DNA of 64,000 nt from an uncultured Spirochaetota bacterium (GTDB lineage: Bacteria > Spirochaetota > Brachyspiria > Brachyspirales > Brachyspiraceae), in the NCBI GenBank assembly GCA_944390575.1, contig CALXQJ010000012.1:1-64000 (forward strand), written 5' to 3'. Position numbers and translations under genes: made by a program. The notes below the pieces were generated by a model. It had not been told where the DNA came from. It ran no database searches and worked only from the letters and a program-made list of their open reading frames with translations. This document shows positions 5,636 through 11,722 of this stretch, in pieces. Positions within the stretch are counted from its first letter, which is position 1; each line of letters begins with the position of its first letter.

Positions 5636-6064
5636 CTAATCTATACTAAAATGTATATAAACATCATCATATCCCAATATATTTTTCAAATTATCAAAAT
5701 TCTCTATATATCCTATTTTTGTATATTTATACGAAGTTCTAAAACTTTCATAAAATAAAACTATACAATTATTTCCATAAAGCATAAAATCACCTGTTTT
5801 TATATTATTAATGCTTTCTGTTTTTGTCTTAAGATTTTTATCTAAATAATAATACTTTTCATTTCTATTAAGATCATTCATTTTTATATTCAAAGGAAGA
5901 AGAGACAAAAAATCTCTTGCAGTATCATTATCATATAATATCAGCTTAAAATCATTATTATTCACTCTAACATTCACTATTTGATTCATCTTATATTCAT
6001 CTCCATAAATAAAATTACATATATTAAAAAATAATAAAAAGAACAATATCTTAATACATCGCAT
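5636..6064 (-). CDS. Secreted cyclophilin-like fold protein
   Basis: 142 residues. The first 21 (basic start, hydrophobic core, small residues before Asp) form a signal peptide with no lipobox cysteine, so export to the periplasm is likely. Residues about 27-142 match the small cyclophilin-like family (Cyclophil_like2 type), with a DNDTARDFLSLLP segment, a NEKYYYLD stretch, a GDFMLYGNNCIVLFYESF core and a final GYDDVYIHF strand. Canonical cyclophilins isomerise prolyl bonds; for this family the activity is not established. It lies 9 bases after the aldo/keto reductase stop and is probably in the same operon. The family assignment is from memory. Confidence 0.85.
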   Translation of the reverse strand: MRCIKILFFLLFFNICNFIYGDEYKMNQIVNVRVNNNDFKLILYDNDTARDFLSLLPLNIKMNDLNRNEKYYYLDKNLKTKTESINNIKTGDFMLYGNNCIVLFYESFRTSYKYTKIGYIENFDNLKNILGYDDVYIHFSID

Positions 6065-6073
6065 AATAATTAA

Positions 6074-6922
6074 TTATTTAACCTCCCTCTGAGATATAAA
6101 CTTAACCATCTCAACATCCTGATGTGAGAAAAATACACTCTTATTCTTATCCAAAGTAGAAATCTTTTGTATATCTTCTTGCTCTAATTGAAAATCAAAT
6201 ATTTCTATATTTTCTTTCATTCTTTTTATATTTGTACTTTTTGGTATAGTAATAATATTTCTTCTTACTATCCAGTTTAATATTATCTGAGCTACAGATT
6301 TATTATATTTTTTAGCAAGTGTAAGTAATATATCATCATTAAATATCCCCTCTTTTCCCTCAGCAAAAGGAGCCCAACCTTGTGGCTGTACATTATACTC
6401 TTTCATTATAGCTTGATAATGCACCCTCTGATAAAAAGGATTAATCTCTATTTGATTTATAGCAGGAGTTATATTATTATGTATTATCAAATCAACAAGT
6501 CTATCTTCAAGAAAATTTGAAACTCCAATAGCCCTTATTTTACCACAACTATAAAGCTCCTCCATACAACGCCACTCAGCATAATAATCTCCAAAAGGCT
6601 GATGTATCAAATATAAATCTAAATAGTCTATTTGCAATTTTTCAAGAGACTCATTAAATGCTTTTTTAGTACCATCATACCCATCTTTTTGTATCCATAA
6701 CTTTGTAGTTATAAATAATTCCTTTCTATCTATACCACTTTCTTTAATAGCATCTCCAACTGCTTTCTCATTTTCATAAGAAGCTGCTGTATCTATAAGT
6801 CTATATCCAGACTCTATAGCATTTAAAACTGCATTTTTACACTCTTTATAATCTTGAAGCTGAAAAACCCCAAACCCTAAAATAGGCATCTCAACACCAT
6901 TATTTAATTTAACATATCTCAT
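6074..6922 (-). CDS. Aldo/keto reductase (2,5-diketo-D-gluconate reductase-like)
   Basis: 282 residues, a single TIM barrel. It should reduce carbonyl substrates with NADPH in the cytoplasm. The catalytic tetrad is visible: Asp in IDTAASY, Tyr in the same segment, Lys in TTKLW and His in LIHQP. The cofactor-binding C-terminal signature IPKSTNIKRMKEN is present. The N-terminus (LNNGVEMPILGFGVFQ) is typical of the YvgN/dkgA branch. The substrate cannot be read from sequence. It lies directly upstream of the cyclophilin-like gene. Confidence 0.94.
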   Translation of the reverse strand: MRYVKLNNGVEMPILGFGVFQLQDYKECKNAVLNAIESGYRLIDTAASYENEKAVGDAIKESGIDRKELFITTKLWIQKDGYDGTKKAFNESLEKLQIDYLDLYLIHQPFGDYYAEWRCMEELYSCGKIRAIGVSNFLEDRLVDLIIHNNITPAINQIEINPFYQRVHYQAIMKEYNVQPQGWAPFAEGKEGIFNDDILLTLAKKYNKSVAQIILNWIVRRNIITIPKSTNIKRMKENIEIFDFQLEQEDIQKISTLDKNKSVFFSHQDVEMVKFISQREVK

Positions 6923-7082
6923 ATTTCAATAACCTCTAACAATATGCTATTATTAGTATAGTTAAAATTTTAAATAAATGAAAAAAAAATTAATATTTTA
7001 TGATAAAACTTAATATATTAAAAAATATACATAAATATCCGAAATTAAAAAATAAATAATATGTAGTAAAAGATATAATAAT

Positions 7083-8234
7083 ATGTCAGTAATAGAGTTT
7101 AAACTACCAACAAAAATAATATTCGGAGCAAATTCACTTGACTCCCTATCTAAAACTATAAAGCAATATGGAAGTAGAGCAGTTATTGTTACAGATGGTG
7201 GATCTTTTAATCAAATAGGATTGATAGATCAAATTGTAAAAAAGCTAAATGATGACTTTATTAATGTTATTGTATATTCTGATATTAATAGCAAAAGTAC
7301 AAGTGATGATGCCGATATTATTGCTAATTTAATACGATATAGTAAAGCTAATTGTATTGTTTCTATTGGTGGGTTTAAAGTTCAAAATATTGCTAAGGGT
7401 GCTGGGGTAGTTGTCTCTAATAGTGGAGAGGCTTCTGATTATGTTAATGGGCAACCTGTTTATCATACTCCTATTCCTATTATATCTGTACCTACTATAT
7501 TTGGATGTTTATCTGAGATTAATCAGGGTATGTACTTATTTGATAAATATGACAATATACTTAAAGAATCTACTGATAAAAATATATTAGTAAAAGATTG
7601 TATTATAGACCCTCTACTATATGCTACTATACCTGTAAAATATTTTATGAGTAGTGCTTTATCTGTTTTTGCTCTTGCTTTTGATGCTTATATGAGTACT
7701 TCTCTTAATATTATGAATGATCCTATTGTAAAACATTCTATGGGTATGAGTATTAATAGTATTAATAAACTTATGCTTAATAGTTCTGATACAGAAAATA
7801 TATCAAATATGGCTATGGCTAATATATTATGTGGTATTACTACTTCTAATGGTAGTTTTGGTGCCATTAGGGCTTTATCTATTGCTGTTAGCAGTATATA
7901 TTCTGTAAACAAGTCTATTGTAAGCACTATAATGTTGCCACATATAATGGAATACTATATTACTGTTGTACCTGATAAATATACAATACTTGCGGATATT
8001 ATAGATGATATAGACCCTGAAATGACTCCATTTGAAATAGCAAGTCAGGGTGGTACTTATATTAAAAGAATACTACAAAATATTAATTTACCTACAAGAC
8101 TTAATGAAATAAATATAGATAGAAGTAAATTCAATAAAGTAGCAGAATTAGCTCTTACATATAGTGGTATGAATGAGTTACCAAGAGCTATGAACTATGA
8201 ATCTTTAATTACTCTATTAGAACAGGCTTATTAA
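7083..8234 (+). CDS. Iron-alcohol-dehydrogenase family protein lacking the metal ligands (probable pseudoenzyme)
   Basis: 383 residues, full length for group III (FucO-like) alcohol dehydrogenases, and alignable from the N-terminal TKIIFGANSLDSL to the C-terminus. The functional residues are changed. The dinucleotide loop GGGSPxD reads GGFKVQN (residues 96-102), and PTTAGTxSE reads PTIFGCLSE. The four metal ligands of FucO (Asp, His, His, His) align with Ser194, Leu198, Arg263 and Lys277. The flanking LPHIMEYY and DAYMS segments keep the alignment in register. The reading frame is intact and codon use normal, so it is not a decayed gene. I infer a protein without Fe-dependent dehydrogenase activity, either regulatory or structural. 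It is divergent from the aldo/keto reductase gene. Confidence 0.88.
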   Translation: MSVIEFKLPTKIIFGANSLDSLSKTIKQYGSRAVIVTDGGSFNQIGLIDQIVKKLNDDFINVIVYSDINSKSTSDDADIIANLIRYSKANCIVSIGGFKVQNIAKGAGVVVSNSGEASDYVNGQPVYHTPIPIISVPTIFGCLSEINQGMYLFDKYDNILKESTDKNILVKDCIIDPLLYATIPVKYFMSSALSVFALAFDAYMSTSLNIMNDPIVKHSMGMSINSINKLMLNSSDTENISNMAMANILCGITTSNGSFGAIRALSIAVSSIYSVNKSIVSTIMLPHIMEYYITVVPDKYTILADIIDDIDPEMTPFEIASQGGTYIKRILQNINLPTRLNEINIDRSKFNKVAELALTYSGMNELPRAMNYESLITLLEQAY

Positions 8235-8239
8235 AAAAA

Positions 8240-9103
8240 TTACTTCTCCCCTTTTGGTGAGTATTTATGAGGATTTTTGTGTAGGAAATCTATTAACTTC
8301 TTATTAGGTTTATAATTATCTATAGTTGGAAGTTTATGATACTCTATTTTTTCTGTATTATACATCTCTGCATATTTATTATAAGAAAAACAAAGTAAAT
8401 ATTCTAAATTAATAGTATCAAGCAAATTATAATGAACTAAAGATTCTATAGCACTTTCATCATTAGTATCCAAATAATAATTCCAAAGTAAAACAGCAGT
8501 ATAGCCATTAACACCCTGCATATCATCACCCCTACTAAGTCCAAGCTCCTCTTCTATTTTTTTTAGTCCACCAGTATACCCTAAATCCTTTAACACAAAA
8601 CGTAAATCTATTTGCTTACACTTAATCTTAGTAGAAAAATATTTCTCTAAAAAAGGTATATCAAAGCAAGAACCATTAAAAGTAACAACTATAGAATAAT
8701 TATTAATATAATCTAAAAACTCTCTTTCATTTCTATTATAAATAAAAACCCTAGTATCAACCCCATCATAACAACCTATAACTGTTATATGTGCCTTTGA
8801 AGGTTTGATGCCTGTTGTTTCTATATCGAGAAAAACTGTTTTCTCTCTAAGAAGTGGATATAATCTATATAATACAGAAGATGATAATCTTTTTAAAAAA
8901 TAATGATAATTTTTAGAATTATATGCATATATAGTTTTAGGAAGTTCTTCTTTAAGAGAAATTCTCATACTTTGTGGCATAGCATAATAGTCTATATTAT
9001 CTAAAACATCTTGCCAATCTTTAGCACCCTCTTCCCAAAGTAATAACTCTTTTTTTGATCCTATACCTTCTATATGTTGAAAAGTCTTTTTTAATAAATA
9101 CAT
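8240..9103 (-). CDS. RNase H-like (YprB-type) exonuclease-domain protein
   Basis: 287 residues, cytoplasmic. From about residue 88 it carries a DEDD-type 3'-5' exonuclease/RNase H-like core: FLDIETTG (exo I, Asp and Glu), VTFNGSCFDIPFL (exo II, Asp) and HYNLLDTINLEYLL (exo III, Asp). The layout fits the RNase H-like family of YprB. The nucleic acid substrate is unknown. The N-terminal 85 residues begin with IEGIGSKKELLLWEEG, the usual prelude in this family. It lies 8 bases after cysS, so the two are co-transcribed. Confidence 0.9.
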   Translation of the reverse strand: MYLLKKTFQHIEGIGSKKELLLWEEGAKDWQDVLDNIDYYAMPQSMRISLKEELPKTIYAYNSKNYHYFLKRLSSSVLYRLYPLLREKTVFLDIETTGIKPSKAHITVIGCYDGVDTRVFIYNRNEREFLDYINNYSIVVTFNGSCFDIPFLEKYFSTKIKCKQIDLRFVLKDLGYTGGLKKIEEELGLSRGDDMQGVNGYTAVLLWNYYLDTNDESAIESLVHYNLLDTINLEYLLCFSYNKYAEMYNTEKIEYHKLPTIDNYKPNKKLIDFLHKNPHKYSPKGEK

Positions 9104-10602: not shown

Positions 10603-10750
10603 GTATAATTTATATCTAAAAAAGAATTAAGAAAAAATTATATTAATATAAAAAGTTTTAATTTATTTATTTTTTTACAATTTAATGTGCAAATATTATT
10701 TTTGTATATACTATATTAAGTATATTATATTTTTTATTAAGGATATTTTA

Positions 10751-11722
10751 ATGAAAAAAAGAAAAATAGGAAATTTAGAAGTATCTACTCTTGGGCTTGG
10801 ATGTATGGGATATGGTGTATCTTATGATGAGAATTATAATAAAAAAGAATTAATATACACTATACATCAAGCATTAGATTTGGGTATAAATTTCTTTGAT
10901 ACTGCAGAGGCTTATGGTCCATATATAAACGAAGAAATAGTAGGAGAAGCTTTAAAAAATAAAAATGCTATTATAGCTACAAAATTTGGAATAAAACATG
11001 AAAATGGAAAACCTATATTAAACTCTAAACCTAAAGTAATAAAAGAATCATTAAATGGTTCTCTAAAAAGATTAGGTGTTGAATGTATAGATTTGTATTA
11101 TTTACATAGGGTAGATACAAATACTCCTATAGAAGATGTTGCAAGCACTATGAAAGAATTAATAAAAGAAGGTAAAATAAAATATTGGGGATTATCAGAG
11201 GCTGGTGTTAATACTATAATAAAAGCAGATAGTATATGTAAGGTTACTGCTATACAAAGTGAATACTCTATGATATATAGAGAAGCAGAAAAAGAAATTA
11301 TGCCTCTTCTAAAAAAATTAAATATAGGATTTGTAGCTTTTTCACCTTTAGGAAAAGGTTTTTTATCTGGGGCTTTGGATGAAAATAGAATTTTAAATAA
11401 TAATGATTTTAGAAAATCAATACCAAGATTTAATAAAGAAAATATTATAAAAAATAAAGAAATATTAAATATATTAAAAGATATAGCAAATAATAAAAAA
11501 GCAACTATGGCTCAAATAGCATTATCTTGGATACTGCACAAAGAAAACTTTATAGTTCCTATATTTGGAGCTAGTAAAATTGATAGACTAAAAGAAAATA
11601 TTTTATCTGTAGATATTAAATTATCAGAAGAAGAACTAAATTTATTAGAAAAGTCTATGCAAAGTATAATTATATATGGAGATAGATACCCTAAAGAACA
11701 TCTTGATATAGTAAATAAATAA
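10751..11722 (+). CDS. Aldo/keto reductase
   Basis: 323 residues from the ATG at 10751, which is preceded by AAGGA at 10739-10743. A start at 10685 would add 22 hydrophobic residues foreign to the family and lacks a good ribosome binding site. The catalytic tetrad of NADPH-dependent aldo/keto reductases is present: Asp in FFDTAEAYG, Tyr in the same segment, Lys in ATKFG and His in YLHRVD. The segment IEDVASTMKELIKEGKI and the C-terminal IVPIFGASKIDRLKEN are typical of the YdjG/AKR13-like branch. The substrate is unknown. It is a monocistronic gene. Confidence 0.94.
   Translation: MKKRKIGNLEVSTLGLGCMGYGVSYDENYNKKELIYTIHQALDLGINFFDTAEAYGPYINEEIVGEALKNKNAIIATKFGIKHENGKPILNSKPKVIKESLNGSLKRLGVECIDLYYLHRVDTNTPIEDVASTMKELIKEGKIKYWGLSEAGVNTIIKADSICKVTAIQSEYSMIYREAEKEIMPLLKKLNIGFVAFSPLGKGFLSGALDENRILNNNDFRKSIPRFNKENIIKNKEILNILKDIANNKKATMAQIALSWILHKENFIVPIFGASKIDRLKENILSVDIKLSEEELNLLEKSMQSIIIYGDRYPKEHLDIVNK

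Follow-up and report, generated by a model that had tools for sequence, protein, structure and literature searches.

The gene examined here lies near the start of a 64,000-nucleotide stretch of DNA (the window) from a Brachyspira-like spirochaete with a 2.0 Mb genome, and encodes a protein of 383 residues whose nearest named relatives, in B. pilosicoli, are 68–69% identical. It is flanked upstream by a divergent aldo/keto reductase gene, beside which is a gene for a small, putatively secreted protein with a Cyclophil_like2 domain (PF18050, 106.5 bits), and downstream by a convergent gene with an RNase_H_2 domain; a second aldo/keto reductase gene is also present in the window. The features of the locus are given in the table below.

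Features of the locus in the 64-kb window, including the positions that correspond to the metal ligands of E. coli FucO
Position	Strand	Feature	Remarks
5636–6064	−	Small putatively secreted protein, Cyclophil_like2 domain	Beside the aldo/keto reductase gene
6074–6922	−	Aldo/keto reductase	Divergent from pADH; at this locus only in the window's species (0 of 25 other Brachyspira loci)
7019–7045	+	Candidate sigma-28-type promoter, TAAA-N15-TCCGAAAT	Begins 64 nt before the ATG; sequence match only
7083–8234	+	pADH, full-length metal-ligand-less Fe-ADH homologue	383 aa
7368–7388	+	Degenerate NAD pyrophosphate loop GGFKVQN	GGGSxxD in true Fe-ADHs
7662–7664	+	Ser194	Position of metal ligand Asp196 of FucO
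7674–7676	+	Leu198	Position of metal ligand His200 of FucO
7869–7871	+	Arg263	Position of metal ligand His263 of FucO
7911–7913	+	Lys277	Position of metal ligand His277 of FucO
8028–8111	+	C-terminal helix and turn, residues 316–343	Most conserved pADH-specific segment (A320, R328, P337, R339, L340); candidate binding face, binding role inferred; helix limits from the predicted model
8240–9103		RNase_H_2-domain gene	Convergent; at this place in all the Brachyspira loci
10685–11722	+	Second aldo/keto reductase	

The protein, which we refer to as pADH, was assigned to the group III iron-containing alcohol dehydrogenases by Pfam, with scores of 99.9 bits for Fe-ADH (cut-off 31.3) and 85.4 bits for ADH_Fe_C (cut-off 27) that together cover the whole chain (PF00465 and PF25137). 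Its predicted structure (pLDDT 88.2, pTM 0.88) is a complete two-domain Fe-ADH fold, Rossmann-like plus helical, that superposes on FucO (1rrm) over 378 residues at 2.2 Å with a Z score of 50 (Foldseek TM 0.91), although the two proteins have only 18% identity. Alignments with 1,3-propanediol oxidoreductase (3bfj) and with FucO from E. coli K-12 placed Ser, Leu, Arg and Lys opposite the four metal ligands, with Ile at a fifth position (H267). There is no shift in these alignments because the DAYMS and LPHIMEYY segments anchor both sides. In addition to the metal ligands, the third G, the S and the D of the GGGSxxD loop and the TxGTxSE motif (PTIFGCLSE in this protein) have been lost, while the GG, D176 and LPHxMEY motifs are retained.

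A sequence-only reading of the region from codon 96, at the start of GGFKVQN, to codon 277 had noted a full-length Fe-ADH homologue with all four ligands replaced and the NAD loop altered, and our analyses confirmed this observation in every detail. That reading further proposed that the intact frame had been selected for another role, such as sensing, binding or scaffolding, and that the aldo/keto reductase was its partner; this interpretation is partly supported. The ligand loss is real and ancient and the gene is under strong purifying selection, so it was kept for a role other than metal-dependent dehydrogenation, but the proposed partnership is not supported since the aldo/keto reductase gene is absent from the other 25 Brachyspira loci. 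The sequence-only reading had named conserved Asp or His ligands elsewhere in the protein as grounds for rejecting its proposal. This condition did not refute the proposal: we found no conserved replacement set of Asp, His, Cys or Glu near the cleft, and the only His conserved in at least half of the pADHs is H287 of the LPHIMEY motif.

The gene is present with an intact reading frame in all 29 Brachyspiraceae genomes. In 28 Brachyspiraceae orthologues S194, R263 and N102 are invariant, K277 is Lys in 26 of 28, and position 198 is Leu in 23 and Met in five, far beyond what would be expected by chance. Pairwise dN/dS values among near Brachyspira species were mostly 0.02–0.10, with a median of 0.10. 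Profile searches of 393 spirochaete genomes, and of 55 chosen genomes with a second profile, identified relatives in most spirochaete families. The first profile gave the impression that Treponemataceae lack the family (best E value about 1e-50); however, this proved to be wrong, as diverged pADHs, mostly beside flgM, were found there from the coordinates of FlgM and with the second profile.

In total we collected 131 distinct spirochaete homologues, of which 98 keep none of the four ligands, 31 keep one (mostly the first Asp), two keep two, and none keeps three or four, with Lys at the fourth ligand position in 55 of the 131. By comparison, all 24 true Fe-ADHs examined (Brachyspira and other spirochaete paralogs, E. 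coli FucO, YiaY, EutG, AdhE and YqhD, and one proteobacterial protein) have the Asp-His-His-His set. In two trees, one of 70 ligand-less and 20 true proteins and the other of 78 and 22, the ligand-less proteins, including that of the window, formed a single clade with SH-aLRT support of 100 and 99, respectively, although the trees were made by a quick method and contain some long branches. The clade spans about 50 spirochaete families, and the simplest reading is a single ancient loss before these families diverged, followed by vertical descent. A search for close relatives among 84,980 species returned only spirochaete proteins, one protein from a MAG without a named phylum and one true ADH, although this was a weak test and restriction to the phylum is not proven. 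The superfamily is also unusually expanded in one spirochaete genome (of a family we label f57), which has at least 16 Fe-ADH-family matches.

Outside Brachyspira the gene has a fixed address, usually in the order rsmI-flgM-pADH. Clustering of the neighbors of 60 loci identified RsmI (TP_methylase) in 39 of them, at the second position upstream in 37, and FlgM (PF04316), the anti-sigma-28 factor, at the first. With a spirochaete FlgM profile, flgM was found directly upstream on the same strand in 43 of these 60 loci, with gaps of 4–183 nt, in 25 of 29 loci of a second set, in six of six further Treponemataceae- and Spirochaetaceae-type loci, in six of six very diverged loci, and in two of four loci of a last set in which the other two are cut by contig ends. 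Overall, the adjacency holds in 82 of the 105 genomes examined. The exceptions are Brachyspiraceae, its sister family (f2), families f31, f15, f26, f34 and f29 (all our labels), one Treponema-like genus and truncated contigs. In families f29 and f15/f26/f34 the upstream neighbors are a transporter-like membrane protein or an uncharacterized membrane protein. In the genome of the window, flgM still overlaps rsmI by 4 nt on another contig (6796–7092 and 7089–7883 of the extracted locus), so it is pADH that has moved, and for this reason the flgM linkage could not be seen from the window itself. The genes downstream of pADH vary and include LarB- and LarC-like genes, cheW, bactofilin genes and a SpoU methylase gene, some of them named from sequence only. 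In about ten loci a LarB-like AIRC-domain gene, often with a LarC-like gene, directly follows rsmI-flgM-pADH.

The distribution of pADH follows that of FlgM. Lineages without FlgM lack pADH: the Borreliaceae-like family f37, with no FliA above the cut-off, and family f22, with FliA and FlhA, are both flagellated but have neither gene, and family f49 lacks FlhA as well. The case of f22 argues against a link to FliA alone, and also raises the question of how sigma-28 is controlled in these spirochaetes. Four genomes (G183, G036, G127 and G204) appeared to have pADH without FlgM, but two were found to have FlgM on inspection and in the other two the contigs end, and thus no pADH was found without FlgM once assembly gaps are allowed for. 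The reverse is not strict, since three genomes, G079 (1.1 Mb), G145 and G245, have FlgM and FliA without pADH and mark secondary losses; in G145, flgM (near 6973–7276 of the − strand of its extracted locus) is not followed by pADH. The protein therefore goes with FlgM but is dispensable, and is not essential to FlgM function.

In Brachyspira, where pADH has left flgM, a sigma-28-like sequence, TAAA-N15/16-TCCGA, is kept upstream of the gene in 25 of 26 species within otherwise diverged AT-rich DNA. For the window species alone, a shuffle test of the single best match was not significant, and the case rests on conservation and rarity: on both strands of the window there are only two matches to the corresponding pattern, of which this is the only one in front of an ORF. 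Similar sites lie upstream of several flagellin genes, of a longer flagellin-family gene and of one chemoreceptor gene. At relocated loci an xCCGA(T/A)(A/T) box was found upstream of 10 of 17 pADH genes, compared with 23 of 187 neighboring ORFs (Fisher p = 3e-5) and two of 43 flgM-adjacent pADH genes. These results are suggestive of sigma-28 control, but the motif was chosen after the sequence had been seen, related loci are not independent, and such sites were not found in f29 (2 of 3), parts of f31 or the Treponema-like genus g23.

To determine where selection acts, we compared 104 pADHs (58 effective) with 23 true ADHs. The columns fixed in the true enzymes but lost in pADHs are the metal ligands, the third G, S and D of GGGSxxD, the TxGTxSE motif, K160 and a few others. 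The columns newly conserved in pADHs lie mostly in the C-terminal helices: A320 (.89, versus.32 in true ADHs), E325 (.73 versus.11; Thr in the window protein), R328 (.90 versus.23; Lys in the window protein), P337 (.90 versus.43), R339 (.89 versus.31) and L340 (.96 versus.50). This is what one expects of a binding protein rather than an enzyme, although this remains an inference.

The window protein did not reach any NCBIfam equivalog cut-off, and no paper on the family was found in the literature searched, so that, as far as could be established, pADH is a new, unnamed pseudoenzyme subfamily of a known fold. The best-scoring curated model was ErcA (NF041833), an "alcohol dehydrogenase-like regulatory protein" and hence also an Fe-ADH homologue named as regulatory rather than metabolic, but the score of 151.3 bits against a cut-off of 550 indicates that pADH is not an ErcA; the genomic context of the family is flagellar. 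The same general Fe-ADH models match all 30 members of a representative alignment. Maleylacetate reductases (such as PcpE; PDB 3w5s and 3hl0) belong to the same superfamily, and PcpE is reported to depend on His172 and Lys238 (PMC5741723); 3w5s aligns with the pADH model at the level of the fold (Z 41.6), but these are active NADH-dependent reductases, whereas pADH has lost the NAD loop and stands apart in its genome context. A dead enzyme fold reused as a protein-binding regulator of flagellar genes would have an analogy in YdiV, the enterobacterial EAL-domain pseudoenzyme that acts on FlhDC, although its fold is unrelated and it acts at a different step.

Based on these data, we consider with moderate confidence that pADH is a catalytically retired group III alcohol dehydrogenase that works as a cytosolic, non-enzymatic partner protein in the late stage of spirochaete flagellar assembly, in the sigma-28 (FliA)/FlgM circuit. 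Our analyses establish the Fe-ADH homology and (predicted) fold, the loss of the metal ligands and the NAD loop, the single clade, the strong purifying selection, the rsmI-flgM-pADH arrangement and the occurrence only in lineages that have FlgM, while it is suggested by sequence alone that pADH in lineages where it left the operon is read from its own sigma-28-type promoter and so stays in the same regulon. The remainder is inferred: that pADH has no metal-dependent dehydrogenase activity, of which we are nearly certain; that it has a role in the sigma-28/FlgM late flagellar program, which is somewhat more likely than not; and that it contacts FlgM or FliA directly, which is only tentative. 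In this view, the pADH dimer would present its conserved C-terminal helical face to FlgM, FliA or another late flagellar protein and modulate stability, sequestration or hand-over for export, and the old active-site cleft would be either filled or reused in some lineages as a ligand-binding pocket. Since gene order also links pADH to RNA methyltransferase genes, the operon alone does not prove a flagellar role, and the retention of the first Asp in some lineages, together with the common Lys at the fourth position, means that reuse of the cleft is possible.

Of the alternatives, the one that survives best, though we consider it unlikely, is that pADH is a metal-independent enzyme that uses the old cleft, with Lys277 and Arg263 as anion binders or general acid, on a phosphorylated or carboxylated substrate, much as maleylacetate reductases work with essential His/Lys residues. 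The conservation of S194, R263, N102 and K277 within Brachyspiraceae and the frequency of Lys at the fourth position are consistent with this possibility. However, across the clade the cleft positions (98, 99, 141, 142, 145, 160, 198, 263 and 277) all vary and are among the least conserved of those fixed in true ADHs, and the NAD loop is lost everywhere, whereas an enzyme should conserve its active site more than its surface; here the reverse holds. It is also doubtful that pADH scaffolds or polymerizes as a structural element of the flagellar or cytoskeletal apparatus, exploiting the oligomer-forming habit of Fe-ADHs, as relatives in AdhE spirosome filaments and the bactofilin genes that adjoin pADH in some loci might suggest, since there is no direct evidence of assembly and the adjacency to bactofilin genes is limited to five loci. 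Slightly less likely again is a role in RNA modification or ribosome maturation, as a scaffold beside RsmI and a SpoU-type methyltransferase, with the position beside flgM being incidental. This is based on the upstream rsmI, the SpoU methylase gene directly downstream in Treponemataceae- and Spirochaetaceae-type loci, and, in family f31, a neighboring gene that from its sequence has an RsmG-like and a SpoU-like part; but rsmI and SpoU genes are housekeeping genes that most bacteria keep without any pADH, whereas pADH is missing just where FlgM or flagella are missing, and relocated loci have candidate sigma-28 promoters. A decaying duplicate, or a still-active metal dehydrogenase with its ligands elsewhere, is contradicted by the dN/dS values, the intact frames in 29 of 29 Brachyspiraceae genomes and the absence of an alternative ligand set.

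The retention of a dead dehydrogenase almost throughout the spirochaetes, usually next to the flagellar anti-sigma factor, cautions against automatic annotation as "iron-containing alcohol dehydrogenase" and against the inclusion of such genes in metabolic models. Spirochaete flagella are internal, with tightly set number and polarity, and FlgM, an unrelated protein of ~100 residues, is the probable functional partner of pADH. The FlgM of Treponema denticola is TDE0201 (PMC9481697), and TDE0200 is annotated as a tetrapyrrole methylase family protein (PMC3914990), which fits rsmI, so that the rsmI-flgM order appears to hold there. In a review (PMC12655853) that covers the key paper on this protein (PMC9945498), T. 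denticola FlgM is reported to stabilize FliA, and its loss to lower flagellin expression and to alter flagellar number and polarity, unlike textbook FlgM; no mention of pADH was found in the passages on this FlgM. A conserved pseudoenzyme encoded in the flgM operon is a direct and natural candidate to explain this difference. It is possible, though tentative, that nearly all flagellated spirochaetes with FlgM carry a phylum-specific third component of the sigma-28 checkpoint, an alcohol-dehydrogenase-fold pseudoenzyme that would bind FlgM or FliA and set the timing, number or polarity of the periplasmic flagella, possibly gated by a small ligand in the old active site.
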